Below are positions 1,085-31,046 of a stretch of DNA of 31,046 bases, piece after piece. Both the position numbers and the translations under genes were made by a program. The DNA lies in the NCBI RefSeq assembly GCF_000003605.2, contig NW_003134362.1, positions 189,367 through 220,412 of the forward strand, written 5' to 3'. Source of the DNA: Saccoglossus kowalevskii (taxonomy: Eukaryota > Hemichordata > Enteropneusta > Harrimaniidae). The notes beneath the pieces are model-generated. The model worked only from the letters and a program-made list of their open reading frames with translations, had not been told where the DNA came from and searched no databases. The number at the start of each line of letters is the position of its first letter. Position 1 is the first letter of the stretch.

Positions 1085-4000
1085 GACATAACCCATAATT
1101 TTTTTCTGCGATCAAATGTTGTTTTCACATCTTACTTGCATCCGACAAAGGTCTTCGCAGAATGTATTTAGTGTTCAGATCCAGATCAAATTGTATGCAG
1201 TTTTAACCCCATCAAACATGTGCGAATGTAACCATGCTGATCGGTCAGCTCTCAATTCAAACGACAGTAGTTCGTTAAATGAAATATAGATTCCCATTCA
1301 AATTTCGTTAACCTCTACCCTGTACCGTCATTAGCATATATCACTGTTCCTTCTGTTCTCTTTTAGTTTGGAGCTAGCACCCACCATACACACCAACAAC
1401 ATCGAAACATAATGCACTAGCTTATATGTATCCGCCAATTGAATGAATCATATATACTCTGAAGCCATGGACACAGTTAAAACTAAGTTAGAAGCTTGTA
1501 TGCTTGGATACACAATCGTTGCCAACAAAATACTGGAAAAAGAGTGATATGGCACCCCCATTCATTACATCACAAAAAAATTAGAATTATCTATGCCCAT
1601 CAGTGTCAAAGAGTTAAAACAGCCGTAATCAGAGGCGTAATTTAATTTAATTTAAGTTTAAACACTTGTTATTTACTGATATTATTGTGTTCCCATTAAT
1701 CACATCATAGCTGCATTGCTATTAAAATCATTTCAACTAAATTAAAACCCTCTTAAGCATAATTTTGAGCTGATGAGAAACTGCATACAATTAAAGTTTC
1801 ATTTTAATAAATTATACTTAGGTAAATTATAATTAGGTAAATTATACTTTTTTGTTTGTCTAACAAAAAAACATAATGTAGCATTGTATCAGTGTATGTT
1901 TGGCGTACTTCTATAGTAGCAAACTAGTTCTTATAATGTAGTATTTTACATTTCACTGTTCGTATGAAGATAATTCTCATGAGCATTTACTAGTATGCTT
2001 GCAAGCTTAAAAGGCTGCTCAGTGGTCTTATTAAAAATAAGAATGATTGGGCTGTAACTGCGAAAAAGAAATTCTGTTGCCTGACACATCCTTTACAATA
2101 TCGCTGACATAAGTTATTTATTATTAACCCTCACTCACAATATTGTTACACGTATACGCACTGAACAATGTAATACTAATACCCTAGGTGGTATCATCTT
2201 TACAGTTTTGTTGTTGTAAATGTTTCCAGTTCTGTTTTCTATTTAGCTGTTTAGAACACGCTGGCCTATTATACATCTGTCATCTCCTAAATTTAGTTAT
2301 TCTCAGTTTAAAGATTGTTTTATGAAAAACTACTGGTATCACATCAATTAATTATTATAAACACTTTAAATCCTCGGCAAGATTATTACACGCTTACTCA
2401 CTGGAACACTTAGCTGGTATAATCTATATGATTTATAATCTATATTGTTATGAACCGCTAAGTATTAGAAATATCACAGGTCTTTTGATCGACTACGTAA
2501 ACATGAACGACGCTATTTTGGCAAGATTTGTTTAGCGATGCTAGCATGTTGGTACACGCCTTTTTTACCCGATTAAAACTAGGTGCAAATAATTCCCGAT
2601 AATAATCTTTACATGGCAGGGGCTGGATGTTTATAAGTTGGTAGACTGGCTTTGATACGTATCAGGGTTCAATAATGCAATATTTCAAAGTCCTAATTTT
2701 GTTTACATGTTCTGTTTACATTGTATTTGCCTGTAGTTTGAGGTCAAAGTGAAGTAATATAACGAGGTATCACTTTGCATGTAAATTTGTCGATTTTAAT
2801 GAATATTCTAAAGGTATCGTGATCTGTCTGACTCCCTCGGTCCAGGTGTGAGCATTTTTGTTACCCACAACGCGGTTCGAGACAAAAGAACACTAGCCGT
2901 TTCTATTTGTTGGTATGTTTTGTAAGACAATTGGGTTAAGCGTCTTAGGGTTTCGAACTGCACAAGACGTTCATTTGGAATTGGTGATCTGGTTTTTGCA
3001 TTATTGCCCATTAGGATGAATATATTGATGGATCAGTTTCGTGGTCCCTGTTAAATATTAGAAAGGTTAATAAGGTAAATTTTATAATTAGGACTCATGG
3101 TCTTTGAAAGCATAGTCAGTTTACCACATCAATATACTAACACTGTAATGCGAATGTTTTTTCCAAGAAGTTAAGGTAGCACATAATTGTCCACCCCATC
3201 GGCCTCCCCTCTCGCTCATGGTTTCTCCTGTCCGCCTACCCAATAAATCATCCTTTCTTGTATAGCCCATCTCGTCCTTTCATTTCCATACCAGTCCCAT
3301 CCCAGTCTTCTGATCCAATCCTTATCTATCGTAATCGCTCAACACTTCACCCGACATTCTACTATTGCCTAGTCCATGGATGCCTCACTTACTCCACCTC
3401 TCGGCACCTTCTCGTTTACCAGTCCTCTCTCTCACTTTCTCATTTTAACCCAATCCAATCCAATACCTTCCAGATCGTTCCACCATATCCCCCTTTACTC
3501 GACAGTCCCAGTGACGTCTCCTTCTAGCATACAACCCCTTGCATACGCTTCTTCTAGCTTACTGTTTCTCTTTCTATCTTACGAGCCAATCCCGGAGTTT
3601 CCAGTTAGTGTATCACCCTAACTAACTTCCTATTCTTAACTACAGCTCCTCTCGGCCTCTTCTTTTTTGTCATCCCATCAACGGTGCCTTTTTTCCTTCA
3701 TGACCTAGCAACGTTCCTTTATACCTTACTATCGATCCTGTCTTCTTCCTCTCGCTGACCTCCATTTCTAGCCTCCCTCTCTCTCCTATGACCCAATACC
3801 ACCTTCACTGAATGACTAAAGCCTCTCCAGGCCGTGTCATCCCACATACAGTTCCTCTAAATTGTTCTTTCAATTCAATACCCACCTTTCTAACAGTTTA
3901 CCACCCAGCCAACAGCCCATTCTGGCGTTTCACGCTTATGACCAATTCCGACCATTCACGATCGTGTACATATTATTAATTCAACGTTTGTGCCTATAGG

Positions 4001-4440
4001 TTGAAGATTGTTCTCATGTATTTGCAACATTATTGGGAGTACCAGAAGCAGGTCACAAACCCATATGTTATAACCATCCATCACTTTGAAATAACTAATA
4101 AATGCCGCTAACAATACTATCGTCTTCAATCATCTCCAACGAAAGTGAACAAACAATTTTTAAAAAAACACTGGTATGTACACCTCTCCCTCACTGGGAA
4201 GAATGCTCTGTCATATCGTTTAATCATTGAGCTACTAAACATTAGCCAATTTATCTACACTGGAATAATGATTACAGTCTTGTTACAAATGTGTTTTAAT
4301 TTTTCAATTTATATATATTTTTATTTGCCATTTAGGTCTGACAAGCCTATTCTATATTATATCGTTTTAATATTTTTCTCGCTTTTGTTTTGTTCTCTAT
4401 TGTCGCATATGGTTAACCAAAATTCGAATATATATTAAAT
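1085..4440 (+). repeat. Long dispersed repeat, copy 1
   Basis: This stretch aligns by eye with 4931-8705 along almost all its length. Anchor strings include 'gcgatcaaatgttgtttt' (about 1108 and 4957), 'gtatcactttgcatgtaaat' (about 2767 and 6582), 'ctctcgctcatggtttctcc' (about 3211 and 7525) and 'aaaaaaacactggtatgtac' (about 4163 and 8428). The offset between copies grows from ~3.85 to ~4.3 kb because copy 2 has an extra ~0.5 kb near 6970-7500. No convincing protein is encoded. Internally it holds repeated AT-rich modules ending in ACTGGTATCAC and a pyrimidine-rich array. No reverse transcriptase, transposase, terminal inverted repeat or LTR was seen, so the class is unknown. Confidence 0.8.
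3190..3960 (+). repeat. Degenerate pyrimidine-rich minisatellite in copy 1
   Basis: The plus strand here is strongly C/T-biased and built from loosely repeated blocks. They resemble 'ctctcgcttacgaccc' followed by 'cctctcggcctc', with a rough spacing of 30-36 bases. Open frames across it consist of Ser/Pro/Leu-rich peptide, the composition expected when C/T-rich DNA is translated, and are not considered genes. Confidence 0.6.
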
Positions 4441-4930
4441 CCTGCTGGTATCACGTGTTTCTTGCTATACATGTCTATAATAAATGAGGAGACAAATAGA
4501 AATAAAGGACGGAAGCAAATTAAGAGGGATATGGACTTATATAATAGGATGACGTGACCCAAATATACCAGAATAGAAAATTAGTATTGTTTTGTAAAGC
4601 TTTATTTTTATTAATATGAGCCCAACAGTTGTATTTATTAGAGCTGTGTTGTGTTTGACAGTATTTCATCGATCTATGGTATACTCCATGTTAGTTCATC
4701 TGTTAGCTATTGTGTCTCTTGTATGCATCCAGTGCAACAAGATTGTGATTATGTTATTGTAGTTGATACTCTGTACAATAAGCGGTAAGACATCCATCTG
4801 ATGGTGTACCACTGCTATGTACTCTGTACAAGAACTGTAAAAAAGTTTCATTACTTTCTATACCTGCATGTCTTGCCTACTTGTACGCTTTTTACACTTG
4901 TCATGGCCATCGTACGCTAGCAGTTCAGTT
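4441..4930. other. Spacer between long repeat copies
   Basis: An AT-rich stretch with no counterpart recognised elsewhere in the window. No open frame of note, no RNA gene and no splice-flanked exon was recognised. Confidence 0.5.
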
Positions 4931-7900
4931 CACGAAACCCGTTAATTTCTTTTTGCGATCAAATGTTGTTTTGACATCTTACTTGCATCCAACAAAGGTT
5001 TCCACAGAGTTTACCTAGTATTCACATCAAGATCTAATTCCATACAGTTTTAACTCCAGCAAACATGTGTGAATTGTAACCATGCTGATTGGTCAGGTCT
5101 CAATTCAAACGACAGTTCGTACAATAAAATGCAGATTCCCATCCAAATTTCGTTAACCTCTACCCTGTACCGTCATTAGCATATATCACTGTTCCTTCTG
5201 TTCTCTTATGGTCGGGGGCTAGCACCCATCATACACATCAACATATCAAAAACATAATGGACCAGCTTATGTGTATCCGCCAATTGTATAAATCATACTA
5301 TGAAGCCTTTGACACAGTTAAACTTAAGTTAGAAGCTTGTATGCGTGGACATACAACTGCTGCTAACACAATACTGAAGATAAGTCATATGGTATCCCCA
5401 TTCATTACATCGCACACAAATTAGAACTATCTATGCCCATCAGTGTCAAAGAGTTGAAATATGATAATAGATATAATTTTTACCATAACAACCGTAATCA
5501 GAGGCATAATTTAAGGAAGTTTAAACACTTTTTATTTACTGAAACTTTTGTGGACACATTATTCACATCATATACGCATGGCTGTTGAAATCATTGAACT
5601 AAATTAAAGATGAGCAGATGAGTTACTGCATACAATTTAATTTTCATTTTAATTCGGTAAATTATAGTTTTTGCTGCTTTTCGGGATGGTTATCTAAAAC
5701 CTTTGTTGTCTAACGAAAATAAAAATATAATAATGTAGCACTGTATGTTTGGCGTACTAAAGTAGCAAACTAGTTCTTATAATATAGTATTTCACATTTC
5801 ACTGTTCGTATGAAGCTAATTCTACTTATGAAATTCAACTAATATGCTTGCAAGTTTAAAAGGTTGCTTAGTGGCCACATGAAAATAAGAATGACTGAAT
5901 TGTAACTGCGAAAAAGAAATGCTGTTGCCTGTGAAAGGATGTAAATGAACCGATGACGACACACCCTTCCCAATATCGCTGACATAAGTTAATTATTATA
6001 AACCCTCACGGACAAGATTATTACACGCTCACTCACTGGAAAACTTAATACTAATACCCTAGGCGGTATAATCTTTACAGTTTTGTTGTTCGAAATGTTT
6101 TCAGTTCTGTTTAGCTGTTTAGAACACCCTGGCATATTATACATCTGTTTATCTCCAAAATTTAGTTGTTTTCACTTTAAAGATTGTTTTATGAAATTAA
6201 AATTAATTAATTATTATAAACCCTTTAAATCCTCGACAAGATTATTACACGCTTACTCACTGGGACACTGGTATAATCTATATATCACAGGTTTTTCGAT
6301 CGACTACATAAACATGAACGACGATATTTAGACAAGATTTGTTTAGCGATGCTAGCATGTTGGTACACGCCATTTTTACCTTATAAAAATTAGAAGATGC
6401 AAATAATTCTCGATAATAATCTTTTCATGGCAGGTACTGGATGTTTATGAGTTTGTAGACTGGTTTTGATACGTTTCAGGGTTCAATAACGCAAAATTCC
6501 ATAGTGCTAATTTTGTTTACATGTTTTGTTTACGTTGTATTTGCCTGTAATTTAAGGTCAAAGTAAAGTCATATAACGAGGTATCACTTTGCATGTAAAT
6601 TTGTCGATTTTAATGATTATTCTAGAGGTATCATGATTTGTCTGACTCCCTCGGTCCAGGTGTGAAGGTTTTTTTTACCCACAATGCGGTTCAAGACAAA
6701 AGAACGCTAGCCGTTTCTAATTGTTGGTATGTTTTGCAAGTCAATTGGGTTGAACATCTTTAGGGTTTCGAAATGCACAAAGCGTTCATTTGGAATTGGT
6801 GGTCTGATTTTAGTATTATTGACCATTAGGAGGAATACATTGATGGATCAGTTTGGTGGTTCCTATGAAATATTAGAAAGGGTTCATGAGGTAGATTTTA
6901 TAATTAAGACTCATGATCGTTGAAAGTTTTACCACATAAATATGTTATAACTGTAATGCGGATGATTTTCAAGAAGTTAAGGTCGCACACAATTTACAAT
7001 TAATTAACAATATAATTGAACCAAATGTGAGTCGTTGGACTTTACCCTGTATGTTACTAACTAAACGTGATAATTTAATGCAGTTACTGAATCTGATTCG
7101 TACATTATCCCGAGAACTGATGATTATATTGCTTGGATTGGGAATGCCAGATTTAAACATAATTGAACATGTGATTCGTTAAAATGGTACTGGCGTTTTC
7201 TTTCAATGGAACAGATTAAGGAAATGTTGGCTTGATAATTCCTGATGCTTTGAATATTATATTTTGACATATTCAATGAACAATTCGAGGGCTAAATTTC
7301 TGATCAAACGGCCCTTTTCTCGCCCGTAGCACTCCCGGCATTTCTCTTTTATTTAGCACCCATCTCGGCCTCTTTTTCCTGTTTACAAACTAATCTCATC
7401 ATTTTCCAATAGTTCACCTCCTACCCCAGATCCCCTTCTTGCCTACAATCCCTCCAGGCACACCCTCTTACGTACAGTTCCATGTGGCACTTTATTTTCG
7501 TTTTCCTCCCCCATCGGCGTCTCCTCTCGCTCATGGTTTCTCCTGTCTGTCCAACCAATAAATCATCCTTTCTCCTATAGGCCATCTCGTCCTTTCATTA
7601 CCATACCAGTCCCATCCCAGTCTTCTGATCCAATCCTTATCTTTCGTAATCGTTTAACACTTCACCCGCCATTCTACTATTGCCTTGTCCATGGATGTCT
7701 CATTTAATGCCCCTCTCGGCACCTTCTTGTTTACCAGTCCTCTCTCCCACTTTCTCATTTTAACCCAATTCAAAACCTTCCAGATTGCATCCCCTTGCAT
7801 AAACCTCTTCTAGCTTACTGTTTCTCTCGTGTTCCCATTCTCTCTTACAATCAAATCCCGGATACAATTCAGTGTATCACCCTACCTGACATCCTAGTCT

Positions 7901-8705
7901 CAACTACAGCTCCTGTCGGCCTCTTCTTCTCGATATCCCTATCTGCGGTTCCTTCTTTCCTACATGACCTAGTAGCGTTCCTTTATAACTTACTATCTAC
8001 CCGGCCTTCTTCCTCTTGCTGACCGCCATTTCCCGCCTCCTTCTCTCTCGTATGACCCAATACAACCTTCACCGATTGACTGAAGCCGCTCCAGGCCGCT
8101 TCATCCCACCTACAGCCCCTCTCAATTGTTCATTCAATTCAATATCCTCTTTGCTAACTGTTCCAACCACCGAGCCTACAGCTCATTCTGGCGTTTCTCG
8201 CTTATGACCAATTCCGAACATTCCCGATCGTGTACAAATTATCAATTCAACGTTCGTGGTTTTAGGGTGAAAATTGCCCTTGTGTATTTGCAAAATTAAT
8301 GGGAGTACCAAAAGCAGGGCACAAGCCCATATGTGTTAACTATTTATCACTCTGAAATGACTAATATATGGCGCTAACAATACTATCGTCTTCAATCATC
8401 TCCAACGAAAGTGAACAAACAATTTTTAAAAAAACACTGGTATGTACACCTCTCCCTCACTTGGAAGAATGCTCTGTCATATCGTTTAATCATTGAGCTA
8501 CTAAACATTAGCCAATTTATCTACACTGAAATAATGATTACAGTCTTGTTACAAATGTGTTTTAATTTTCCAATTTATATATATTTTTGTTTTGCCATTT
8601 AGGTCACACAAGCCTTGTACATATTGTATTGTTTTAATTTTTTCTCCCTTTTGTTTTGTCCTCTATTGACGCATATGGTTCACCATAATTGTAAAATATT
8701 AAAAT
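4931..8705 (+). repeat. Long dispersed repeat, copy 2
   Basis: Second copy of the family, in direct orientation to copy 1. It differs by many substitutions and short indels, so the duplication is not recent overall. An additional segment near 6970-7500 is lacking in copy 1, but part of it ('aaatttctgatcaaac' at about 7295) recurs in the fourth copy at about 25700. Copy 2 is therefore closer to the fuller form and copy 1 carries a deletion. No protein-coding capacity was recognised. Confidence 0.8.
7300..8210 (+). repeat. Degenerate pyrimidine-rich minisatellite in copy 2
   Basis: Counterpart of the C/T-rich array in copy 1, longer on its left side. Blocks of the type 'ctctcgcttatgacc' and 'cctctcggc' recur at about 30-36 bases. 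Peptides read from it are low-complexity and have stops in the other copies, so no gene is called. Confidence 0.6.
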
Positions 8706-8716
8706 GTATTAAATAA

Positions 8717-9560
8717 TTTAAGGAAGTTCAAACTTTAGTTACTGAAATTATTGTGTACCCATTAATCACATTATAGCTGCATGGCCATTGAAATCATTTG
8801 AACTAAATTAAAAACAAGTTACTGCATATAATTTTCATTTTAATTCGGCAAATTATACTTTTTATAATGTAGTATTTTACATTTTACTGTTTGTATGAAG
8901 CTAATTCCTATGAGATTCTACTAATATGCTTGCAAGCTTAACATGTTGTTCAGTGGCCTTAAAGAAATAAGAATGACTGAGCTGTAACTGCGAAAAATAA
9001 ATGCTGTTGCCTGTGAAAGGATGTAAATGAACCGATGACGACACACCCTTTCCAATATCGCTGACATAAGTTAATTACAAGTATTATAAACTTTCACTGA
9101 CAAGATTATTACACGCTTACTCACCGGAAAATGTAATACTAGGTGGTATCATCTTTACAATTTTGTTTAGATGTTTTTATTTAGATGTTTAGAACACGCT
9201 GGCCTATTATACATCTGTCATCTCCTCAATTTAGTTATTCTCAGTTTAAAGATTGTTTTATGAAAAACTACTGGTATCACATAAATTAATTATTATGAAA
9301 CCTTTAAATCTCCAGTGACAAGGTTAGTACACGCTTGCTCACTTGGACATTTAGACGGTATAATCTATACAATTTATAATCTATATAGTTATGTTGATCA
9401 AAATGTTTTCAGTCTTTCATGTACTGATATCAAGTTTCTAATTCTGCTTTTTTTCTGTTGAGAACTCGCCGTCACATTATACATCTGTTCATCTCCTAAA
9501 TTTTGTTATTATTCTCAGTTTAAAGATTGTTGTTTGATAAAATACTGGTATCACGATTGT
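8717..9560 (+). repeat. Long dispersed repeat, 5'-truncated copy 3
   Basis: Starts with 'aatttaaggaagttcaaac', which matches an internal position of copy 2 (about 5510), so the left ~0.6 kb of the family is missing. It contains two consecutive ~210-275-base modules, about 9070-9280 and 9281-9554. Each begins near TTAATTATTAT and ends with ACTGGTATCAC. It stops before the downstream part with the pyrimidine array. It lies directly upstream of the lectin promoter. Confidence 0.7.
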
Positions 9561-9905: not shown

Positions 9906-9954
9906 ATGGTCGGAGTTTGGTTTTTCCTCGCAGCAGTCCTCCAGGCACAGGTTA
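9906..9954 (+). CDS. Lectin exon 1: signal peptide
   Basis: Starts MVGVWFFLAAVLQAQ, a short hydrophobic signal-like peptide. The ATG has a strong context (A at -3, G at +4). An upstream in-frame ATG at 9852 would add 18 polar residues before the hydrophobic core and has T at -3, so it is less likely. Two donors are possible. CAG|GTTAGT after 9950 is the stronger string but leaves phase 0. GTGAAT after 9954 is weaker but leaves phase 1, which the next recognised exon needs. I end the exon at 9954. If the stronger donor is used, an extra exon with phases 0 and 1 must exist in the first intron. Confidence 0.65.
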
Positions 9955-12900
9955 GTGAATTACTGTTATTGTAGTTGAATATCTAACACTAATTTGGAAA
10001 TACATTTTCTACATATGTTAATTATGTACATATACATATGTTAATTAGATAATATTAATACTATTATTATACCAATATTAATAATATTAACAAACGATAG
10101 TATGTTATAAACGGGACATGGGAGCACTTTCTTGCATCTCTATTTTGATGAAGCACCAGTTTTCCTGCTTTATGAAAAAAAAACACCACCAAGACGCCCG
10201 CAAATGTAATTCTTCTCATCCCGCCCATCCTCTTCCATCCATATTTTATACTGTCAACAATCTAGAATACGTTTCTCTTTATTATATATATTGAGCTCCG
10301 TTCTTTAACATGATTGGATCGTAACGATTGGCATGCATAGTCAAAATTTACAATAAAACTAGACACACACTATTGCCGGTAATTTGTACTAATTATTAAA
10401 TGTAATTCTACAGTCATAGATGATAATTATTAGAACATGTTAATTATCGACATTATAATACTTATAAATAACATTGAAGTTGATCAATATAGTGATTGCC
10501 ATTATTACAAAAAATAATATTGTATTGTTACAATAATTTAATTGTCAGAGCTGTAAAAATGTATTATTCAGTTAGAGGAAGTTATAGTTGATATAGGAAT
10601 AGTAGCATATATTATTTAATTTTTCGAAGCTGTTAACATCCGATGTAGGAATGACACCAAATTAGCACCCTGTATTATTTAGTCTCCGGGAGCTGTCATT
10701 ATTCAATATAGGAATGGCACCAAAATGTATAAAATAGTTGTTGGAAGCTGTTAATATACGATATAGAATTGGTACCAAAATAGTAGCATGTACACATAGT
10801 TGTCGAGAGTTAAGGTTCGATATCGGAATGATACCAACATAGCATGTATGTAATCAATATCAGATTCAATTCACAATGTGGTAATGTCAAATTACGGGGA
10901 ATAATTTGATATTGAATAGTGAAGTTGTACCTTTCCAAAAATCTCCTCCACAAGATGGCTCAGCATGAGGGATTTCGTCCTTCTGTTTTGTGATATCTGC
11001 TAGAGCAGTGATGTAACAAGGAATGGCATTTTCTATTCTTTACTTCGTGTCCTCCCAATATCCAATATGTTTATACAGAGCTGTGCATTCCACGGGAACC
11101 ACACTCATTCTACTTTCAAAGGGTCCGTGAACAGTATTATGACCGGTGTTCATGTATCAATCTGTGATCTTTGTCAAATGGTGGTTAAATCCATCCATTA
11201 CTCATCTTGAATTTACAAGGTAATTGTTCCGGCGAAGTACTCACCTTGATGTATTTCATTAGGACCACGTGTATGTGACAATGCCCTCGCAGTTTAGAAT
11301 CAGTTTACCAACAGCCAATCATATTGCTTCTTTCTTCAACGCGCTTGGCCAAACTATCAAAATCTTCGAGGTGGAGCTAAGTCACGAGACGCTCCACGTT
11401 GCTATTTAAGACGCGCACCACTACACCATGTATTTCTATGGGCTCTGCACGAGATGCTGTGAAACACCGGTCGAAAAGCTGGTGAAATTTTCTAAAATCA
11501 AAAAAACAGCACAAACTTAAACAACCTAAACAAATCCTAAACAACCAAATTTAAATATGTTGCATATGTAGTGGTAATCTTGTTACACTGTTCAGCGGGG
11601 GTGCCAACAACCATCACAAAATACCGTTTTCTGAAAATGTATTGTCCTTTGTTGTCGGGTGTGTTTAAACCGAAGAACTAAAAAAAAGAACGATGACAGA
11701 ATATTCATACTGTTTAATCATAACAGTTTAATACATTTACATGCAGTCATCGTTCATACTGTTTAATCATAACATATATATTCTTCGTTCTTCGTTCTTC
11801 GGTTTAAAGTCGCCCTTTGTTTTCACCATGATGATGATGAAAATATCTGACCCGAGTATAAATGTCGCTGCACACAGTGATAGCTGTGTTGGCTTGGATG
11901 TCGAGGCGCTTTCTGGCAGTCATTGTAACATAGCTTTCTATTGGTCGGAAAACTTTCTATCGCGCAACCCCGTGACATACACGGTTATGAATAGAATTAC
12001 CGCACGTTGTTGTAGAGAGAAGAATGTCCGAACGGAACAATACCGTGCAGGCGGACGATGTCCACCACTGGGCTGGATGTGCTAACATCTGGACATATTC
12101 TTGAGGGCTGCTATGGAAACAAGACCTTTCATGGTTGAAATAATTTCCACAAAGCTCAATCAGTTGTCTGAGCTGCACAGATATTACTATCGCAAAACCA
12201 CCAAAAAATGAAAATGGAGGATATTGTCACTCCAAACCAAATTACTAGGGCAAAAATAGACTCACGCCATCCATTAAATAACTTTGCGAAATTTACAGCA
12301 AGAACACAATAGCTTCACCACTATCGTCAGTTCTCGTTAAATGATACACACTACAATAATAAAAATATGTCACAAAACAGTATGTTCAATAATATATAAC
12401 AATGTCATACGATTTCAAGTATTGCCAACCGGTTCACAACGTTCTGTACAATTCCGAAAATTCGCTGACCAGGAGGCAAGTATAAATCACACAGTCCAAT
12501 GCTGAATGTCAACAGAGCTGCTCCGATGCTGGTTCGGCAGTCGCTTAGGTCTCATCACGGCACTGGGATAATGTAAACTTTCTATGACATCTCGTCCGTG
12601 GGATGCAACACTCTGAACTTTACCAGATTTTCGATCGATGCATCAACGTTACATATACAACTTAGCAAGTATCTGTACAGCAAAAACAAAGATCAAATCA
12701 ACTATCACTCCTGGTCATTTCTGTCCACCGCCTCGTTTTTAGGGGAAAAAAAGAATCCAACCTCGTTCGCACATATAAAATCTAATGAATACCCTCATAT
12801 GAGCTCAAGTAAATGAGTAACTTAACTTTTGGATTACGGAGAATTGTGCTAGTAATATTATTTATTCGCTTTCGTTACATGTATGATGTTGCAGAAGCTG

Positions 12901-15900
12901 GGTGGAAGAGCAATATCCTGACATTGTTGTTTACGTGTACTTTTCTGTTCATTTCTGCTAATACTAACTTTCTGCATATATTTTTCATGATTTTCAAAAA
13001 GTACACTACAAAGCTTTGGTTTTTAAAATGAATGCACATTTTAGTTGGAAAAACAAACGTATATGTAAATGAGTCATTTGTTATGCCATTTTATGTCAAT
13101 GTATTCACGGGCATATACCAGGAATACGATACACGGCCTCTACTTTGTCATAACCTTGAAACATAAATTTTATTGAATCGAATTAACTTGAGAATCAGTT
13201 TCTTTCTTTTCTTTTTCTGTTCTTTTTGCTTTGTTACTATGGACATATTTTATTTCGTGATTGTTGTGACATTTTACTGTAGACTTCAATTGAAATACGA
13301 ATTTTACACTAGATACAATTTTGCTGATGATCTAAAAACTGAGGCTGTGTCGTTGTTTAAATTGCTCTCTGGTTTAGTACAAACTAAATTAAATTACATT
13401 TTTCTCTTGTGATAAGTTTACATTACATAGATATTTATACATATTTTATATTATTTATACATTTTTTGCTCACAGATTTAACATGCGGGGTATTCAGAAA
13501 AAATTTTGGTTAAGAAGAGTTAAAAAAATAAATTCTCTGATACAAAATTTCAGGAAAAAACGAATTCGATGCTTAATTTCATTTTGTTGTGATGATTTAT
13601 TTTATTTCTCATTGTATTTTATATCACTATAATTATCACTCTACCTCAATAGGTTATATTGTACCGTAATTCTGTGGTATTCGACAGTTTGTTATCATAT
13701 CTTATTATGTAATTTGGGACGATTATGCAATATTTTCAAGATGGCGGAAAAGACTCCCATTAATTGTCACAGGCTTGTTGAAGCGGGAGGGTCGTCACCT
13801 GCGCACGCGCGGGAATTGAGTCCCAAGGACGATAATAACACACGCTAAAAACGCAAACACTTGTTTGTAAACAGGTCTCATACCACTAATTAACCAATGG
13901 CTGCTCGTAGCCCGATTAAATGCCTAGAAAGAACCAGTAATTTTTTTTAAATTTGTTTTTTCTCAGGTGCTCCCTGTTTGAGGGCGTAATCACCTGGGTC
14001 AAAGATGAGACCAACATGTGGTCTTTTGTTTACTACTTAGCGACTGTGTACCTGTGGGTTTATTCTGTGTGTATTTGGATGTTCTAATCTTGGTGTTTTT
14101 CCAGTGATTTCTCTAGGTGCAATCCAAATACAGTAGGTGTGTCTTGTTTACCTGAGATTGGTAAGAGTTTGAGCTGGCCAACATGTTAGTTTTTTCATAT
14201 GGTTGTTTACTGGCATGTTGATTTCCCATTTTCGAGTCATGTTTTCAACTTTCTTCATCATTTTCATATAGCAGTCTCGTCATATGTTAACATTGTCGTC
14301 TATGGAAATTCAATTAGTGGTATGAGTCCAACAATGAAACGCTATGGCCATATGACGTATGCGCAGGTGGCGACTCCCCCGTTTTTAGTTCTTAGCTTGA
14401 TACAGCGAACGATTGAATCGGGAAGATATAATATAAAAGAAGAGTTAATGCGAGAATGGTCGCATTTATATACTGCCGCTATACTGTCGTTGCGCGAAAT
14501 GTGTGATATATACATGTATAATAACCTCACTCTAATATTAATTATATTTTCTTGTTCATACTTTTCTAATAGGCAAATATTGGTGGTCGACCTTCAAGAA
14601 ATTATAATGGTGAATATGAATTATTCATTACAATTAAGTAAATGCATCGTTATTATAGTTAGAGGTAGCGATGCGTGACAGTTGATGAACAAACACACAT
14701 TATATTCATATTTCAGGGCCTGCGTTGCTTGGTACTGGTGAAGATAAGAAGTTGTACTCCAAAAGTTATTCGGATAGACAGTGGGACGGTCCTATTGGAA
14801 GTTCTTGCTGTATGATGAGAATTGCAGTCATGCAAGATGGTAGCTTACTTGGAGTCGGTGAAGACAATCAACTATATACTAAGACGTCTATTCATGCTGG
14901 CAAGTGGAAGGTCGTTGAGAACAGTTGCTGCATTCAGGATGTGACAGTGCAACAGGACGGTTCAATCATCGCCGTATCCTCCGCCGTCAGTCGGAAACTG
15001 ATGACTCGACCCGATCTGACCAGTGAATGGACAACCAGCCGTAAATTCAACGATGCTATCCGCATCGATGTACTACCAGATGGCACTATGTTAGGTGTCA
15101 CTTCATCTGGAGGACTAAAGCGACGGGTGGGCGGATTTGATGGTACATGGAAATACCAAAAAAGTTTTGGTATGAAAGCAGACGACATTTCAATTCAACC
15201 TGATGGAACCGTACTAGGTATTGAAAAAGGCGGGTGCGGTGTTCACGTCCTCGACTTAGAAACTGGTAAATGGGGCGAAGAATTACTTGAATCTGAATGT
15301 GTAACGGCCATTGCGTCACCTGGCAATTTGAGTGAGTATATAACACGGGGTCTCATATAATGTTATTGTACAACAAAATATGCGTTAGCGGGAATTAGTT
15401 TTTGCATTTTTGTTTTTCTACGAGCGGTTTTAGTATAATAGCTGCTGAATCTACAAATTATTTAGCAAATTATGTATTCATGCATGCAAATTGTTATTCA
15501 TTATCTGCATTCTTTAAGATGTGATACACAAATACTCTTGTTGCGATTAGAAGTGATTTCTCCAAATTTTGGAGTTGTGCGGGCTGGTGTATTGAATGTC
15601 TGTACATGCGCAGCGAAGTGCTGAACATTGTTTTATTCGAACCATTTGCACTGAAACAAGTAAACGTCGAATTGTTTCCACGTAAATTCGAGCCAATATC
15701 GCAAAAATGTTGTTTACATACATTATTGTAGTGTTTCAGAATTTATAATCTAACTCTTTCCCTGCAAGCGGGAAAATGTACCAGGCAGGAAGTACATTTT
15801 TAGTTTGTGTCTAGTGTGAATTCTTATTTATTATTTAATATCTCGATTCTTAATGAGCAATGTGACAATGGTTGAATTATATGTTAATCAAATAATCTTC

Positions 15901-18900
15901 CTGTTACTGTCACTTAAGGGTATGGAACAAAATAATTACTAAATGTGATGGTAGCAACATGTTTGTCGAATCTACTGTTATTAACCGGCAATTTTTCTAT
16001 TCTGAAGTATTCCCTGAACCCACAGTCGCACCAACAGAGGCGCCAACAGAGGCGCCAACAGAGGCACCAACCGAGGCACCAACCGAGGCGCCAACAGAGG
16101 CACCAACCGAGGAACCAACCGAGGCGCCAACAGAGGCACCAACCGAGGCACCGCCGCCACCTTCAAGTACGTAATCATTAGAATAGAAGAGTACAGCAAC
16201 CAGCAGTGTTAGACACCCGTTTAATGCGCCTAACTTTAGGCTATAAATCCTACCTTTCAGTATGAGCCATTATCAGTTTATACTCTATAACATGTACATT
16301 ATAATTACAATCCAGACATCTAGTGACATATGCTACTATATTACTCAACAATATTCACTGATTTATTCGTAGAATCCAAGATTTTTACTGACAAAGTGCT
16401 GTTTAAGGATTCATTCGCGGAATGTTATAAAAGAGGTATGATGCTTGCTGTTCCAACTGATGAGAGTGCATATAATGACATAGTTAATGCAATCAAAGCA
16501 ATGGGGGAGCTGGATACAGAATATATCTTCATTGGCATAAAGTACATCGACGACGACATTAAAACAATTTATGGAAGTCGTGACTTCTACCGAGCATTTG
16601 CACCTAACGAGCCCAATGGTCATGGGGACAATTGTGTCGTCATTTCGTAAGTGATTCTTTGTTATTGTCGTCACATGTGGATATAAATCGTTTAGAGGTA
16701 TAGAGAGTATACAATTATAATACATTTTTAAGTATAATGGTGACACAAACTGGATATCAATTATTGTTTCTCAATTAAGTGTCAATCAGAAAATCTTATT
16801 AATTTTAAGTTGTAGCATAACGGAATTTACCCGCCGTGTGTGCGCGTTCTGGATTTGATATTCAAATTCCAGGGATAAAATGCACCTTGGCGCGTGACAA
16901 AATCGACAACAATTTTAATTATATTTTAACGAACTAGCGGTAATACCGATCATATACTATTTCTACACATAATATACATAACACAGATATAACAAAGATA
17001 TTTGTATTATAAATTCTAAAATATACTCCTTTATTTGGAATGGGCATGACAGAATATCACGCAACACCATAATAGGCCAAGGGGGATTGGGTATGTTGGA
17101 TATATGTGCAATGCAAAAAGCCATTAAAGTAATGTGGGTCAAACATTATCTCTCTGATACTTTGAAGCTTGTGGGGGACACCACATTAATAGTCTGTTTA
17201 TTGGGCTTACCTTGGCTGGACATTCATTTATTCTCTGCCTTTTAATATGCAACAAACTGCAACAAACGACAATCTCAATGGAAATTAGGCCACAATATTA
17301 TTTATACAAATGAAAAGTTATTCCATTTGAGTTCAGCATTAGTAAGTTCGAATGTATGCACTTTCTGTTATGACACTCCGTTTCTCTACATTAATTCATC
17401 TATTTGCTGAGTGTTAACCGGTCCAGGTTTTATGGAGATCTATGTAAATATATGGAGTAAGGCCTTAAGACTTAAAAAATAAGTTAACAAGCAAACAAAT
17501 TATTTTGGGAGATAGAAACTTGTCCATTCTACTCAATCACATTATACTTATTACAGCATTTACAACAGCATACTTATAAAAATCATGCCAAACATAGCTA
17601 TAGCAGAGGTGAAATACAATAAAAAAAGTATGAATCACTACTTTCAACCAGAAAGGGCGCAACAAGAATTGGAATAATGTTCTAGTGTAACAGTACAGGC
17701 ACTGACCTTTGTTTTGCAATTGATCAATAAGATTGTAACTTATCGAATTGGTGTGTACTACTATATAATTTGGCAATCTCCACAATGTTAATGAATGCTT
17801 TGAGGGTATGCTGGAAATGGGATACCTGCCATATTCAATCACTGTGAAGTTGTTCATTATTGTATTCTGTTTCTCACCCAAAGGGTTAAAGATGACTACA
17901 AGTACGTCGACATTGACTGTGGGAATAAAGCTTGGGAAGGGCCAGAGGCTATGTATGTATGCGAACCACTAGGTAAATCATTTATATATTAACCTAATTT
18001 AACTTTTTTAGTTTTAGAAACATCTCCATTTACCTCCGCTTATTTAAGTCTTGTAATTATTAAAATACCAGGAAAACAGCTCGTCATGATTATTATCGAA
18101 TGTTGCTCCGTTTTCTTAACTTAAAATAGATGATCCACTCTCATAAGATTTTATATGTGGTGATTTGATTTTGTAAAATGGTATCTATATTTCAGATCCT
18201 TACTATGCTGCAGAGATAGTCAAATACAAATTCTTCGACTCAAGGACGCCTCGTGACAAAGCAATTACAAAATGTAAAAAGCGAGGCATGGTACTTGCTA
18301 GAGACCACAGTGAACAGACCCATGGTGCCATTCTAATCAAGATATGGATAACTTCGTCATTTTGGGAGAACTATCATATTGATGCAGTAAAAGGAGGTCC
18401 TACCGGTGTGATATCAAGTACTGGGCAAGCTCAGAATTTTAAACCATTCGCAAAGGGTGAAGTTGATGGACAAGGTAACTGTTTCTATCTACGGTAGGTA
18501 CAGTTATGTTATCTTGTGTGTCACTAAATACATTCTATATTGTTCACTATTTCAAATAATCATTAGGCCCGGCCCGTTTTGTTATTTATGTTCCACTTAT
18601 GTTCCATTTACTGTACTGTACTGATAATCTAAGCATATATTAATATGGGGTTATTACTAAGATACCTCAAGTATGCACGAAGACAATACAGCGGCAGTAT
18701 CGACCGACGCGCAGATGTCTACATACATCTATAAACGTTTTAGTAGATTTTCTCTATAAATTGTGATAGATGATAAATTGGGAAGCTATTTCCAGTGGCT
18801 TTCCTGTAATTGCTCTATAGACTTTACAGAAACAAGAACACACAACTAATGATACATGCACAAGAATAGATTCTAATGTATTGGCCGTAATTGTAATTAA

Positions 18901-19897
18901 GTACAATAGGCACCAAGTTGAAGATCAGAAAACATTATGTAATGTTAAATGCATAAAATGGGTTTAAGCACAAGCATGTGAACAATTCAAGTTGGATAGT
19001 CATGTGATCAATATATTATTTTCAAAGCAATCACATACATTGCAGTGGCTCATAGATACTGCGAACTACATTTTAGATCGTGATTTCAGTTGGTAACTTA
19101 GTAACCCATATGATACTGATGGCTATCAGATTGCCTTAGAGAATTGACAAGATATTGTCACACACAAAAAAACAACTCTAATGAAACTCACTAATGTTGT
19201 ATAACAGGTATCAAAGATATTGAGGTATTATTTATTTGCTATAAATATAGAATGAAAATATATTTTGAAATATCCAGCGCTGAAAATGACCAAATGGTTT
19301 CATTGATCAAAGTTAGGAAATAAATTATTTTTAATTCATTAGCAAACTAAACACATTTTGAAGTATCTATTTATCAATCAAATTATTTATATGAAGTTAC
19401 ATTCAACTTAGAAAGTGTTTTTTATGCAAATCCAAAGAACGTCTACATTAATTTTGTGATACAATACAAACACATGAATGAATGATTGCATAACTATATT
19501 TAAAGAGCAGAACTGCAAATACTATTGAAATCTAATAAAATATTGTATCAGCTTTTTCAAATGGTGTCTTGATTGACAATTGTACATTCTATTTGTTTTA
19601 AAGGAGAACTAAGGAACATCAGTGGGGCGATCATAAGTGCATCAGGGCATATGGATTCATATGCTACGATAGTGAGTTTGTCTTATCATAACATATATCA
19701 ATGATTTTATATTAGAAAATTACAAACGAAAGCGTGTTTCAGTACTAGAAATACATTTCCAATTATGAACTTTACCACCTTGTGCAGAACGCTTATTGGA
19801 ACAGACACACTCAGTGGTAAAGGATACAATTGAAAACACTATACGGAGATAACTGATTTATCTTTTTCGTTGATAAGGATACGCTACATCGGACTAA
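9906..19897 (+). CDS. Secreted lectin gene: five propeller repeats, PTEAP linker, two C-type lectin domains (spliced)
   Basis: Gene-level entry. The preferred model joins 9906-9954, 14717-15331, 16008-16166, 16373-16646, 17884-17972, 18196-18493, 19604-19671 and 19878-19897. That is 1572 nt, or 523 residues plus stop. All junctions are GT-AG and in phase, with phase 1 at domain borders and phase 2 inside each C-type domain. Order in the protein: signal peptide, five ~40-residue repeats with a DG[ST]-hydrophobic-GV core, Thr/Pro-rich linker, lectin domain 1 (EPN motif), lectin domain 2. Known C-type domains bind sugars or proteins extracellularly, so recognition or immunity is the likely role; this is inference. 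The weak points are the first-exon donor, the possibility of an unseen exon in the 4.8-kb first intron, and the exact C-terminus. Confidence 0.82.
10574..10850 (+). repeat. Degenerate ~60-bp tandem repeat, about five copies
   Basis: Five imperfect copies share a pattern close to 'gaagctgttaa.atncgatataggaatgacaccaaa' followed by 'tagcatgta'. Examples begin at about 10578, 10627, 10689, 10744 and 10807. Copies vary in length (about 45-65 bases). Non-coding and intronic if the lectin model is right. Confidence 0.65.
10887..11153 (-). pseudogene. Unrecognised coding-like fragment with one in-frame stop
   Basis: On the minus strand a frame runs from ATG at 11153 to a TGA at 10887-10889, 89 codons including the terminator, with a single internal TAA at 11040-11042. 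Its composition is balanced and protein-like: segments such as VECTALYKHIGYWEDTK before the stop, then NAIPCYITALADITKQKDE and AEPSCGGDFWK after it. This contrasts with the low-complexity peptides from surrounding AT-rich DNA. No family is recognised. It may be the end of a decayed gene whose earlier parts lie at 11308-11376 and 11957-12570, or a transposon remnant. Confidence 0.35.
11308..11376 (-). pseudogene. Unrecognised coding-like fragment, possible exon remnant
   Basis: Minus-strand frame reading LHLEDFDSLAKRVEERSN followed by MIGCW and a TAA at 11305-11307. It is preceded on the minus strand by TAG (11377-11379), which could be an acceptor AG or a stop. The amphipathic, charged composition is protein-like. 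It resembles the tail of some glycosyltransferases only loosely, so I do not assign a family. Confidence 0.25.
11664..11808. repeat. Nested inverted repeats with internal direct repeat
   Basis: An outer perfect 15-base pair (tttaaaccgaagaac at 11664-11678; its reverse complement at 11794-11808) encloses an inner perfect 10-base pair (gaacgatgac at 11688-11697; gtcatcgttc at 11746-11755). Also present is a perfect 22-base direct repeat (ttcatactgtttaatcataa plus ca, at 11704-11725 and 11753-11774). The transcript could fold into a long interrupted hairpin. It could also be a short foldback element, but no target-site duplication was identified. Confidence 0.6.
11957..12570 (-). pseudogene. Possible decayed coding sequence, unrecognised
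   Basis: Two minus-strand frames look protein-like. One near 12570-12410 includes SIGAALLTFSIGLCDLYLPP then GQRIFGIVQNVVN before a stop. The other, about 12178-11957, includes LIELCGNYFNHERSCFHSSP. They are in different frames, lack clear splice sites and match no family I know. They may belong with the fragments at 10887-11376. Chance open reading in a less AT-rich patch cannot be excluded. Confidence 0.2.
13735..13870 (+). promoter_or_regulatory. GC-rich promoter-like patch with YY1-type and NRF1-type motifs
   Basis: Within AT-rich DNA, a ~130-base GC-richer island carries caagatggcgg at 13737-13747, a match to the YY1 core often found at animal start sites. About 55 bases on is tgcgcacgcgcggg, close to the NRF1 palindrome. 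The ATG inside the YY1 motif (13741) opens a 35-codon frame ending TAA at 13846-13848. This could be an internal promoter, the start of a non-coding transcript, or a transposon piece. Confidence 0.35.
14199..14678 (+). other. 159-codon open frame just upstream of lectin exon 2, coding status doubtful
   Basis: Starts at a real ATG and ends TGA at 14676-14678, 38 bases before the exon 2 acceptor. The predicted peptide is rich in Ile, Tyr and Met. No family is recognised, it has no cysteine pattern like the neighbouring exons, and an antisense frame is also open across part of it. It is long for AT-rich DNA, so I list it, but chance opening is the more likely explanation. Confidence 0.15.
14717..15331 (+). 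CDS. Lectin exon 2: five propeller-like repeats
   Basis: 615 nt with phase 1 at both ends, encoding ~205 residues. Five units of 39-41 residues begin LLGTGEDKKLY, LLGVGEDNQLY, IIAVSSAVSRKLM, MLGVTSSGGLKR and VLGIEKGGCGVHV. Four end in a DG[ST] turn. Each has a Trp or aromatic mid-unit (QWDG, KWKV, EWTT, TWKY, KWGE) and an alternating hydrophobic strand before the DG turn. This spacing is typical of small beta-propeller lectins with tectonin- or tachylectin-like repeats, though sequence identity to those is not claimed. The SSCC/NSCC pairs in units 1 and 2 could form disulfides. The last unit lacks a DG turn (SPGN). The symmetric phase makes the exon a shuffling-competent module. Confidence 0.85.
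15332..16007 (+). other. Lectin intron 2
   Basis: Begins with a strong donor (gtgagt) and ends after a T-rich tract (ttttctattctgaag). No inserted element or gene was recognised. Confidence 0.6.
16008..16166 (+). CDS. Lectin exon 3: PTEAP-repeat linker
   Basis: 159 nt, phase 1 to phase 1. Encodes FPEPTVAP then tandem PTEA units ending APPPPSS. The unit is 12 bases (ccaacagaggcg and variants such as ccaaccgaggca), repeated about 11 times with one PTEE variant. A Thr/Pro-rich spacer of this sort is typically extended and O-glycosylated, separating the propeller from the lectin heads. An alternative acceptor (cccacag ending at 16025) is also in phase and would shorten the exon by 18 bases. Confidence 0.85.
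16018..16163 (+). repeat. Coding 12-bp minisatellite (PTEA units)
   Basis: Tandem 12-base units varying at two synonymous positions (aca/acc for Thr, gcg/gca for Ala). Because the unit is a multiple of three, copy-number change keeps the frame and only alters linker length. Confidence 0.85.
16373..16646 (+). CDS. Lectin exon 4: C-type lectin domain 1, N-terminal part
   Basis: 274 nt, phase 1 to phase 2. Contains the first conserved cysteine (SFAECYKRG), an LAVPTDESAYNDI helix region typical of the fold, FIGIKY in place of the WIGL core, and NEPNGHGDNCV. The last includes a canonical EPN tripeptide, which in studied C-type domains helps bind calcium and mannose-type sugars, and the second conserved cysteine. 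The acceptor is ttcgtag ending at 16372 and the donor is gtaagt at 16647. Confidence 0.92.
16647..17883 (+). other. Lectin intron 4, hosts a LINE relic
   Basis: Splits C-type domain 1 in phase 2 just after the second cysteine. It begins with gtaagt and ends ctcacccaaag. The middle is occupied by a dead LINE fragment in the same orientation as the gene. Confidence 0.8.
17012..17690 (+). mobile_element. 3' remnant of an L1-like LINE reverse-transcriptase ORF
   Basis: The frame from about 17012 to a TAA at 17243-17245 reads SFIWNGHDRISRNTIIG, then QGGLGMLDICAMQKAIKVMW and VKHYL. This is the conserved FIWNG...GGLGM.D....KA.K..W block near the C-terminal end of L1-type non-LTR polymerases. Further on, after frame breaks, VCTFCYDTPFLYINSSIC (about 17350-17408) resembles the C.FC...ET..HLF..C zinc-knuckle region that follows it. 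A weak tail may reach ~17690. Stops and deletions show it is inactive. No poly(A) tail or target-site duplication was identified. Confidence 0.75.
17884..17972 (+). CDS. Lectin exon 5: C-type lectin domain 1, C-terminal part
   Basis: 89 nt, phase 2 to phase 1. Encodes VKDDYKYVDIDCGNKAWEG then PEAMYVCEPL, supplying the third and fourth conserved cysteines and the final YVCE strand. The usual WND calcium tripeptide reads YVD here: Trp is Tyr, the Asn ligand is Val and Asp is kept. Calcium or sugar binding may be altered despite the intact EPN in the preceding exon. Confidence 0.92.
18196..18493 (+). CDS. Lectin exon 6: C-type lectin domain 2, N-terminal part
   Basis: 298 nt, phase 1 to phase 2. 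Acceptor atttcag, donor gtaggt. Begins DPYYAAEIVKYKFFDSRTP and carries the first cysteine (AITKCKKRGMVLA) and second cysteine (GQGNCFYL). The EPN position reads EVD, so the Pro and Asn of EPN are lost while the Glu remains. The WIGL core is weak (SSFWENY). Overall spacing still fits the fold. Confidence 0.9.
18494..19603 (+). other. Lectin intron 6
   Basis: 1.1 kb of AT-rich sequence between the two halves of C-type domain 2. No gene, element or repeat was recognised. Confidence 0.6.
19604..19671 (+). CDS. Lectin exon 7: C-type lectin domain 2, C-terminal part
   Basis: 68 nt, phase 2 to phase 1. Reads RTKEHQWGDHKCIRAYGF then ICYD, supplying cysteines three and four. The WND position reads WGD, keeping Trp and Asp. 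If the donor gtgagt at 19672 is not used, the frame runs on for SEFVLS and stops at TAA 19689-19691, giving a natural alternative end. Confidence 0.9.
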
Positions 19898-20222: not shown

Positions 20223-20365
20223 ATATTTATTCTATCGAACAGCGAGAACCCAACCAAAGAACCTATTTCGTAAATGAACTAAATTAAGCATGATACCACA
20301 TCTCGAAGGAAACGACGCATTGCATGAATCGAAATGAATAAATAAATAATAATGTAATAATCATA
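20223..20365 (+). other. Terminal exon of lectin gene, mainly 3'UTR
   Basis: Follows acceptor ttatag (ending 20222). In the alternative frame of exon 8 it continues as RYLFYRTARTQPKNLFRK to TGA 20275-20277. It ends just beyond two overlapping AATAAA signals at 20337-20342 and 20341-20346, so cleavage near 20360 is expected. Confidence 0.55.
20337..20346 (+). terminator. Polyadenylation signals of lectin gene
   Basis: Two overlapping AATAAA hexamers, plus strand, ~60 bases after the last possible stop codon. This is the first strong signal downstream of the lectin coding exons. Confidence 0.6.
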
Positions 20366-20839
20366 AAGCTGTGTAAGTTATTCTATTGTCAGTACTTTCA
20401 CGGGAAATTTTGAAAATATGTCATCCTCACATTTTGGGCCGCATACATCATAAGACGAAGGTAATATCAAAGAAAGAGTGGTATGATTTCTACAAAGCTT
20501 ATGTTTTTGTTGTGTTCGTAGTTAGACAACACATACAACCGTGTCTCTTTCCAAAGTTATAGCAAAATCCCGAATCCAATAAATGTTTGGAAATCGCTTT
20601 GATACAACTACTGTCTGGAGCTCAGTGTCATTGAAAGGCAGTTATTCCGTGATAAAAGAAACATTTGTGGATCGTGTTATATTGTTTTAGTGCAGTTTGT
20701 CGATCGAACGTACATCGGTTTGTCTTGTGAGCACGTATGTAATGATTACAGAACGCCATAGCCGGACAAAACATTTGTGGAATGTGGAAGTAAGTATCCG
20801 TCATGTGGAACATTGCTGTAACATAGATATCGTACAGAA
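20366..20839. other. Intergenic stretch before minisatellite
   Basis: No gene or repeat is recognised between the lectin 3' end and the ~48-bp tandem array. Confidence 0.5.
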
Positions 20840-22447
20840 ACATCACATGGCTGCAATTTACATAGCATAGTGCGGAGATATAAAAAAACATCACATGGCT
20901 GTAATTTACATAGCATAGTGCGGAGATATAAAAAATATCACTTGGCTGTAATTTACATAGCATAGTGCGGAGATATAAAAAATATCACATGGCTGTAATT
21001 CATATAGCATAGTGCGGAGATATCAAAAAACATCACATGGCTGTAATTTACATAGCATAGTTCGCAGATATAAAAAAATCATCACATGGCTGTAATTTAC
21101 ATAGCATAGTGCGGAGATATCAAAAACATCACATGGCTGTAATTTACATAGCATAGTGCGGAGATATAAAAAAACATCGCATGGCTGTAATTTACATAGC
21201 ATAGTTCGCAGATATAAAAAAATCATCACATGGCTGTAATTTACATAGCATAGTGCGGAGATATAAAAAAACATCACATGGCTGTAATTTACATAGCATA
21301 GTTCGCAGATATAAAAAACATCACATGGCTGTAATTTACATAGCATAGTGCGGAGATATAAAAAAAACATCGCATGGCTGTAATTTACATAGCATAGTGC
21401 GGAGATATAAACAAACATCACATGGCTGTAATTTACATAGCATAGGGCGGAGATATAAAAAAAACATCACATGGCTGTAATTTACATAGCATAGGGCGGA
21501 GATATAAAAAAACATCACATGGCTGTAATTTACATAGCATAGTTCGCAGATATAAAAACACATCACATGGCTGTAATTTACATAGCATAGTGCGGAGATA
21601 TAAACAAACATCACATGGCTGTAATTTACATAGCATAGTGCGGAGATATAAAAAAATATCACATGGCTGTAGTTTACATAGCATAGTGCGGAGATACATC
21701 ACATGACTGTAATTTACATAGCATAGTGTGGGGATCTCAAAACACATCACATGGCTGTAATTTATATACCATAATGTGGAGTTGTCAAAAACATCACAGG
21801 TCTGTAATTAATATATCATAGTGCGGAGATATCAAAAGCATCACATTACTGTAATTTATATAGCATAGTGCGTAGATATCATAACATCACATGACTGTAA
21901 TTTATATAGCATAGTGCGGAGATATCACAACAACACATGGCTGTAATTTATAAAGCATAGTTCGGAGATACCAAACACATCACATGGCTGTAATTTACAT
22001 AGCATATTGCGAAGACACGAAACACATCACATGACTGTAATTTACATAGCATAGTGTGGGGATATCAAACACATCACACGGCTGTAATTTATATAGAATA
22101 GTGTGGAGATATACAACACATCAGATGACTGTAATTTACATGGCATAGTAAGGAGATATAAAACACAACACATCACATTACTTTTTTATATAGCATAGTA
22201 AGAAGATATCAAAAGCATCACATAGCTGTAATTCACATAGCATAGTGCGGAGATATAAAACACGTCACATGACTAATTTATATAGCATAGTGCAGAGATA
22301 TCAAATGTATCACATTACAGTAATTTATATAGCATAATGCGGATATATAACACATCACATGACTGTAATTTATATAGCATATAAAAAAGAGATATCAACA
22401 CATCACATGCCTGTAATTTACATAGCATAGTGTGGAGATATCAAACG
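20840..22447 (+). repeat. ~48-bp minisatellite, about 34 copies
   Basis: The unit is approximately 'catcacatggctgtaattt', then 'acatagcatagtgcggagat', then 'ataaaaaaa', counted at about 34 copies. Copies from about 20880 to 21700 are nearly identical and almost all 47-49 bases long. From ~21700 to 22447 they are much more diverged, with substitutions and indels. A variant with ttcgcag instead of tgcggag recurs at about 21060, 21204, 21301 and 21542, two, three or five units apart. The minus strand stays open in the homogeneous part because the unit is close to 16 codons without a stop. This is a property of the repeat and not evidence for a gene. Confidence 0.95.
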
Positions 22448-30240: not shown

Positions 30241-30537
30241 CTGGTGGGTTGCAATGATTTTACATGAACTAGTCATTTCAAACAGTTTGTGAACACACAT
30301 TGTCATTCACAAGACTCCTGATGAGAACTAATATGTTCTTACTTATCAAGAAACAAAGCATACAACTGACTTGCATCACTAGAACCGGTAAGAGGGTTGG
30401 TTTGATTATCAGATTATCGGATTACAAATTCATATGTGTTTCGTTGGATGAAAATGGTCAAAATATGAATTCTCATTATTTCAGTTGATTAAGAATAGTT
30501 TTAATGGTTCCCCTTTAGTTTCCTCTGACTAAGAATT

Positions 30538-31046
30538 CTCTCATCAGTTCTGTCGAATACGATGGTCTGATTATGAATTCCCATCACTTCTGTCAAATAA
30601 GACGGTCTGATTATGAATTCCCATCACTTCTGTCGAATAAGATGGTCTGATTATGAATTCCCGTCAGTTCTGTCAAATAAGATGGTCTGATTATGAATTC
30701 CCGTCAGTTCTGTCGAATAAGATGGTCTGATTATGAATTCCCATCACTTCTGTCAAATAAGATGGTCTGATTATGAATTCCCATCACTTCTGTCAAATAA
30801 GATGGTCTGATTATGAATTCCCATCACTTCTGTCAAATAAGATGGTCTGATTATGAATTCCCATCACTTCTGTCAAATAAGATGGTCTGATTATGAATTC
30901 TCATCACTTCTGTCAAATAAGATGGTCTGATTATGAATTCCCATCACTTCTGTCGAATAAGATGGTCTGATTATGAATTCCCATCACTTCTGTCGAATAA
31001 GATGGTCTGATTATGAATTCCCATCACTTCTGTCAAATAAGATGGT
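30538..31046 (+). repeat. 40-bp satellite with an EcoRI site per unit, runs off window
   Basis: Twelve full and one partial copy of 'gatggtctgattatgaattc' followed by 'ccatcacttctgtcaaataa'. The period is exactly 40 across the array. Units differ mainly at caa/cga and at atcac/gtcag. Diverged older copies are visible just left (about 30437-30530). The array lies upstream of visible GSTK1 exons on the minus strand, so it is probably intronic. Confidence 0.95.

Follow-up and report, generated by a model that had tools for sequence, protein, structure and literature searches.

A predicted lectin-like gene of Saccoglossus kowalevskii joining a five-repeat propeller, a PTEA stalk and two C-type-lectin-like domains

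Gene structure

We analyzed a stretch of 31,046 nucleotides (nt) of the hemichordate Saccoglossus kowalevskii, hereafter the window, which corresponds to C2613:189367-220412 (contig NW_003134362.1) within the 572-Mb genome assembly. One gene on the + strand was rebuilt there from splice sites; positions without a contig name are those of the window. Its start codon lies at 9906 and its stop codon ends at 19897, exactly the range given in the initial annotation. Nine exons encode a product of 534 residues, in which a signal peptide, a five-repeat beta-propeller, a PTEA stalk and two C-type-lectin-like domains (CTLD1 and CTLD2) follow one another. All introns are GT-AG, with the phases 0, 1, 1, 1, 2, 1, 2 and 1. 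The single reading frame across GT-AG junctions proposed earlier holds for this nine-exon chain, and so does the placement of signal peptide, Thr/Pro stalk and two C-type-like domains within it. The count of eight exons had to be revised: a 37-nt exon at 14573-14609 had been missed, and if exon 1 is spliced straight to the propeller exon, everything downstream is out of frame, so that nine exons are needed. As predicted from the genomic sequence, the chain is a real, single animal gene.

Exon 1 (9906-9950) contains the start codon and the signal peptide MVGVWFFLAAVLQAQ, which was called from hydropathy and not by a signal-peptide program; its donor GTTAGT is in phase 0. The short exon 2 (14573-14609; ANIGGRPSRNYN) is entered in phase 0 and left in phase 1 and forms a 12-residue link to the propeller; its counterpart in a paralog on contig C4613 reads ANIGGRIPRSYS. 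The propeller of 205 residues is encoded by exon 3 (14717-15331, phase 1-1) and the stalk, ten PTEA/PTEE units in 53 residues, by exon 4 (16008-16166, phase 1-1). The first part of CTLD1, including the motif EPN, lies in exon 5 (16373-16646, phase 1-2) and its last part (YVDIDC...YVCE) in exon 6 (17884-17972, phase 2-1). CTLD2 is divided in the same way between exon 7 (18196-18493, phase 1-2), which contains EVD, and exon 8 (19604-19671, phase 2-1), which ends the domain (QWGDHKC...FICYD). Exon 9 (19878-19897) adds the final residues RYATSD and the stop codon. Candidate polyadenylation signals, AATAAATAAA with a double AATAAA, were located by motif scan only at 20337-20346 (+), 440 nt past the stop codon. 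No AATAAA or ATTAAA was found by motif scan in introns 3 (15332-16007) and 4 (16167-16372).

An inverted second copy

A complete inverted copy of the gene lies on the minus strand of the same contig (C2613:177326-165382). The two genes are arranged head to head, and about 22 kb separate their start codons. None of the nine exons or of the splice dinucleotides is lost in the copy, which also retains the stop codon and an open frame of 530 amino acids (aa). Its signal peptide shares 14 of 15 aa with that of the window gene, and exons 2 and 9 are identical. Exon lengths are equal except for the PTEAP exon (147 nt in the copy versus 159 nt in the window), as the stalk of the copy is one 12-nt unit shorter, in frame. 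Across 1593 aligned exon bases there is no other gap run, whereas the introns show 87 over 8120 aligned bases. The chance of at most one exon gap run is P = 2.6e-6 (0.03 for the 5' half and 4e-6 for the 3' half).

The two genes are not equally alike along their length. Intron identity is 94.9-98.1% for introns 1-4 and 59-90% for introns 5-8. From signal peptide to propeller the synonymous divergence (dS) is 0.037 and the nonsynonymous divergence (dN) 0.019, compared with a dS of 0.146 and a dN of 0.108 for the CTLDs. By dS, the heads of the two CTLD genes are about four times more diverged than the scaffold, and the difference is significant (Fisher p 0.0025 and 5e-9, from rounded counts). Since the 5' half is about 95% alike including its introns and the 3' half less so, the simplest reading suggested by the alignment is a recent homogenisation of the 5' half, through gene conversion or unequal exchange, that did not extend to the heads.

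The propeller domain

Five repeats of about 40 residues had been proposed for exon 3. Self-similarity bears this out, with peaks at shifts of 40 (z 6.2) and 41 (z 5.7) against 500 shuffles and no further shift within 20-79 exceeding z 3. In PDB sequence searches a PQQ propeller scores best (E 2.3e-5), followed by a designed propeller (E 4.7e-5); tachylectin-2 (1tl2) is absent from these sequence matches at E values up to 10. When prokaryote contigs were scanned with a query made of the clearest repeat plus two typed consensus rows, five relatives emerged from 156 candidate stretches. The Nannocystis relative has ten repeats, readable as two sets of five, and matches the designed protein v31Bagel8 (E 3e-14) as well as Cake. 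In the Chitinophaga relative (L002:4044-5450) an M57 peptidase domain is followed by five repeats of the same propeller kind, and five repeats stand at the C terminus of the Thiotrichaceae relative (both by eye). The remaining two are shorter cases. Three bacterial relatives score 66.8, 46.4 and 21.2 bits with the Pfam family Tectonin (PF19193), two of them above the gathering cut-off of 30; among the paralogs, the propeller on contig C3467 reaches 24.8 bits and the second propeller on contig C3089 23 bits.

An AlphaFold2 model of the window propeller, with the bacterial relatives as rows, gave a predicted local distance difference test (pLDDT) of 81.3 and a predicted template modelling score (pTM) of 0.81. 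Tachylectin-2 (1tl2, 5c2m), carp fish-egg lectin (4ruq, 4rus), Laccaria tectonin-2 (5fsb) and Pizza6 are among the 50 fold matches listed, and we take many of the others listed to be propeller proteins. The top match is a chain of a Toxoplasma microtubule structure. The propeller suggested in the initial annotation was obtained by this prediction and not refuted. The number of blades follows from the five repeats counted, not from the model coordinates. As a predicted fold, exon 3 is a tectonin-like five-bladed beta-propeller.

The C-type-lectin-like domains

CTLD1 and CTLD2 are 24% identical to each other (pairwise E 4e-9), and each is cut by a phase-2 intron at a similar place ahead of the last segment. 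C-type lectin domains have four conserved cysteines, which form two disulphides. Four cysteines were found in each domain, at residues 303, 373, 389 and 403 of CTLD1 and 433, 502, 518 and 526 of CTLD2, with presumed pairing. Joined from its two exons, CTLD2 scores 26.1 bits with the Pfam family Lectin_C (PF00059; cut-off 22.6) and that of the inverted copy 27.2. Exon 7 alone has no Lectin_C match, which supports the exon 7/8 junction. A profile of both domains together matches mosGCTL-20 (E 3e-4), mosGCTL-6 (0.002) and tetranectin (0.012). The C-type assignment made earlier therefore stands well for CTLD2, and the relationship appears weaker for CTLD1, which is matched through the pair profile only.

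The calcium and sugar motif of C-type lectins is EPN or QPD, plus WND. At these positions CTLD1 has EPN and YVD, and CTLD2 has EVD and WGD. Calcium-dependent sugar binding is uncertain because EPN of CTLD1 reads APN in the inverted copy and CTLD2 has EVD. These residues cast doubt on a typical C-type sugar site in either domain.

Relatives with other heads in the same genome

At E <= 0.001 the propeller has at least 33 matches on 18 contigs of its own genome, the window itself counted. Five genes form a close set: the window gene, the inverted copy (96% aa identity), C3467 (73%), the first propeller of C3089 (69% over residues 42-204 and 50% over 1-56) and C4613 (68-82% by pieces). Matches outside this set do not exceed 42% identity. 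In a tree of 17 selected rows, from which C4613 was left out, the other four genes group together with a local support of 0.966.

On C4613, F5/8C exons come after a signal-like exon, the counterpart of exon 2, a propeller with a broken frame and a PTEAP exon. These F-type exons lie at L018:2249-3005, 3219-3440 and about 5738-5950. The first exon of this head exceeds the cut-off of F5/8C Pfam models, and the joined exons match the F-type lectins FBP32 (3cqo, E 1.5e-47) and LECTIN 1k12 (E 4.6e-23). The first F-type unit is open, with both exons in phase 1-1, and the second contains in-frame stops. The motif of F-type lectins is HX26RXDX4R/K. In the C4613 head RxDx4R is present (RQDCCSER), but the position of the histidine is a cysteine by count. 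On C3089, a frame-broken propeller is followed by two short linker exons with TTEEPTDAPT (by eye) and then by a second propeller, which a stop codon closes. The C3467 propeller sits at a contig end.

F-type exon matches number 89 genome-wide, and outside C4613 none of their contigs has a propeller match. The same holds for the eight matches of CTLD2 (exon 7, itself included), C2613 excepted. The modules therefore also exist separately, and the joins look local.

Clusters of F-type exon matches were seen at C352:19156-44037 and C4257:95100-232589 and on C2403 and C3226. Another use of a propeller with a flexible linker is seen at L035, L037, L039 (C1914), L044 and L047 (C805), where pairs of propeller frames have a Ser/Gly-rich stretch between them (by eye). 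Long repeat frames of the NDNDKRNSGE type are located downstream of the double-propeller gene (C3089:41977-43999, minus strand).

Other features of the window

Intron 5 contains an open stretch (16982-17245) that by eye resembles the C-terminal part of a reverse transcriptase of long interspersed nuclear elements and has no Pfam match. Downstream of the gene lies a 47-bp tandem array of 34 copies (20838-22445); a similar sequence lies some 1.5 kb beyond the propeller on C3467, on its downstream side (C3467, about 264007-265132). The region 1642-9384 has stretches that match the region of the inverted copy several times over, which indicates internal duplication. A 40-bp tandem array of 13 copies with 95% matches (30524-31046) reaches the contig end.

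Comparison with known lectins

Short tandem repeats and a propeller fold are shared with the tectonin-domain lectins, i.e., tachylectin-1, carp fish-egg lectin, Laccaria tectonin-2 and hTectonin; 4ruq, 4rus and 5fsb of this group appear among the fold matches listed, and the family model accepts two of the three bacterial relatives. Unlike these lectins, the window propeller stays below the Pfam cut-off and is fused to a stalk and CTLDs. Tachylectin-1 and carp fish-egg lectin are listed as sixfold propellers in an extract of PMC3269628, whereas the window propeller has five repeats of 40-41 residues. A five-bladed fold is common to tachylectin-2 and the window propeller (there by repeat count and predicted fold), but the motif of tachylectin-2 comprises 47 residues according to a passage of PMC4735018. 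Designed propellers also match, Pizza6 as a fold match of the window propeller and Bagel and Cake as sequence matches of the Nannocystis relative. Pizza, Cake and Bagel are designed proteins, and no lectin role is implied by them.

A signal peptide and two tandem CTLDs are also found in secreted tandem C-type lectins, such as the insect immulectin type (excerpt of PMC8878817) and the mosquito mosGCTL proteins, two of which were matched by the pair profile. In contrast to these, the window protein has a propeller and a PTEA stalk in front and an altered sugar motif. Chimeric F-type lectins join the F-type domain with other lectin domains, including CTLD and pentraxin (legend in PMC5712786); no propeller is among the partners in that legend. 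Each module is already known, and the predicted gene represents a chimeric animal lectin-like protein. The propeller-stalk-CTLD combination was not met in a limited literature search, which did not cover animal protein databases, and priority is not claimed.

Discussion

We consider it probable that the window encodes a secreted chimeric lectin-like protein, a single product of 534 residues with a propeller, a ten-unit PTEA stalk and tandem CTLDs. Its modules may have been assembled by exon shuffling, since phase-1 introns mark the boundaries of propeller, stalk, CTLD1, CTLD2 and last exon and since in relatives a propeller and linker of this kind are followed by other heads. Given that tectonin and tachylectin propellers recognise bacterial sugars, the propeller could be the glycan-binding base of the protein and the stalk a spacer that holds out the lectin-type heads. 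With the heads adding another specificity, a single chain could bridge two ligands. A rigid spacer and multivalent recognition, both proposed in the initial annotation, are putative properties. The most likely role would be that of a soluble recognition or agglutinating protein in innate immunity or mucus. A precedent is given in PMC2707011, according to which hTectonin binds both lipopolysaccharide and M-ficolin, and GBP of limulus acts with the lectin CL5. The window gene would unite partners of this type in one chain.

Several observations weigh against this interpretation. The exon joins are predicted from genomic DNA, and sugar or ligand binding by propeller or heads is a prediction. Because the 5' half is nearly identical between the copies, splice-site conservation is weak proof there, and the gap test is strong in the 3' half only. 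The dN/dS ratios between the copies are 0.45 for the propeller, 0.69 for CTLD1 and 0.76 for CTLD2 (Fisher p 0.13, 0.38 and 0.46) and in none of the four parts tested significantly below 1; substitutions alone do not demonstrate selection on this pair. The window propeller reaches only 21.1 bits (E 2.4e-4) with PF19193. NCBIfam models give no match above their cut-off. CTLD1 alone has no Lectin_C match in Pfam, its EPN is not kept in the inverted copy, and single-sequence searches of PDB with the CTLDs are weak (best E 0.019 and 0.038). The signal-like exon of C4613 has I for M at the aligned start, and the propeller frames of both head-swapped relatives, C4613 and C3089, are broken in this assembly, which lowers the confidence in the head-swap picture.

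The chain might instead combine in silico two adjacent genes, one for the propeller, with or without the stalk, and one for a separate double-CTLD protein. Introns 3, 4 and 5 (676, 206 and 1237 nt) leave space for this, the fusion is read from genomic DNA, and there are contigs that have CTLD relatives but no propeller match. We regard this as very improbable, since introns 3 and 4 lack both polyadenylation motifs, the complete inverted copy keeps the same order and phases, and the stalk exon of C4613 also precedes lectin exons in the same phase. Decay of one or both duplicates into pseudogenes, which would leave an architecture without present function, is quite improbable: both C2613 copies have open frames of 530 codons or more that differ by a single in-frame gap, against 87 gap runs between their introns, although the dN/dS ratios and the broken propeller frames on C4613 and C3089 would agree with decay. 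A protein that is secreted but does not bind glycans, its protein-protein or structural modules being carried on a mucin-like stalk, for instance in shell, mucus or adhesive, is rather unlikely but deserves more weight. It would fit the variable C-type sugar motif, and functions other than carbohydrate binding have been ascribed to more than 80% of C. elegans and Drosophila lectins (PMC8614816). On the other side, the fold matches listed include tectonins and tachylectin-2, which are lectins (PMC3269628), and the head of C4613 is a clear relative of F-type lectins.

Beyond the single chimeric lectin-like protein, the close set might represent an innate recognition kit, a possibility which we put forward tentatively. 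A constant base of propeller and stalk would carry exchangeable heads, i.e., two CTLDs in two genes, an F-type head on C4613 and a second propeller on C3089, joined by phase-1 shuffling. In the two C-type genes the base would stay alike, perhaps through gene conversion, and the heads would grow more different. If so, specificity would be altered by swapping or diversifying heads. If the genes are expressed as predicted, an invertebrate mounts unrelated lectin folds on a common scaffold, changing the head and keeping the stem. They would then offer a tractable case in which to see how recognition without antibodies may acquire new specificities, and a testable design with two ends, one formed by the propeller and one by a C-type or F-type head.

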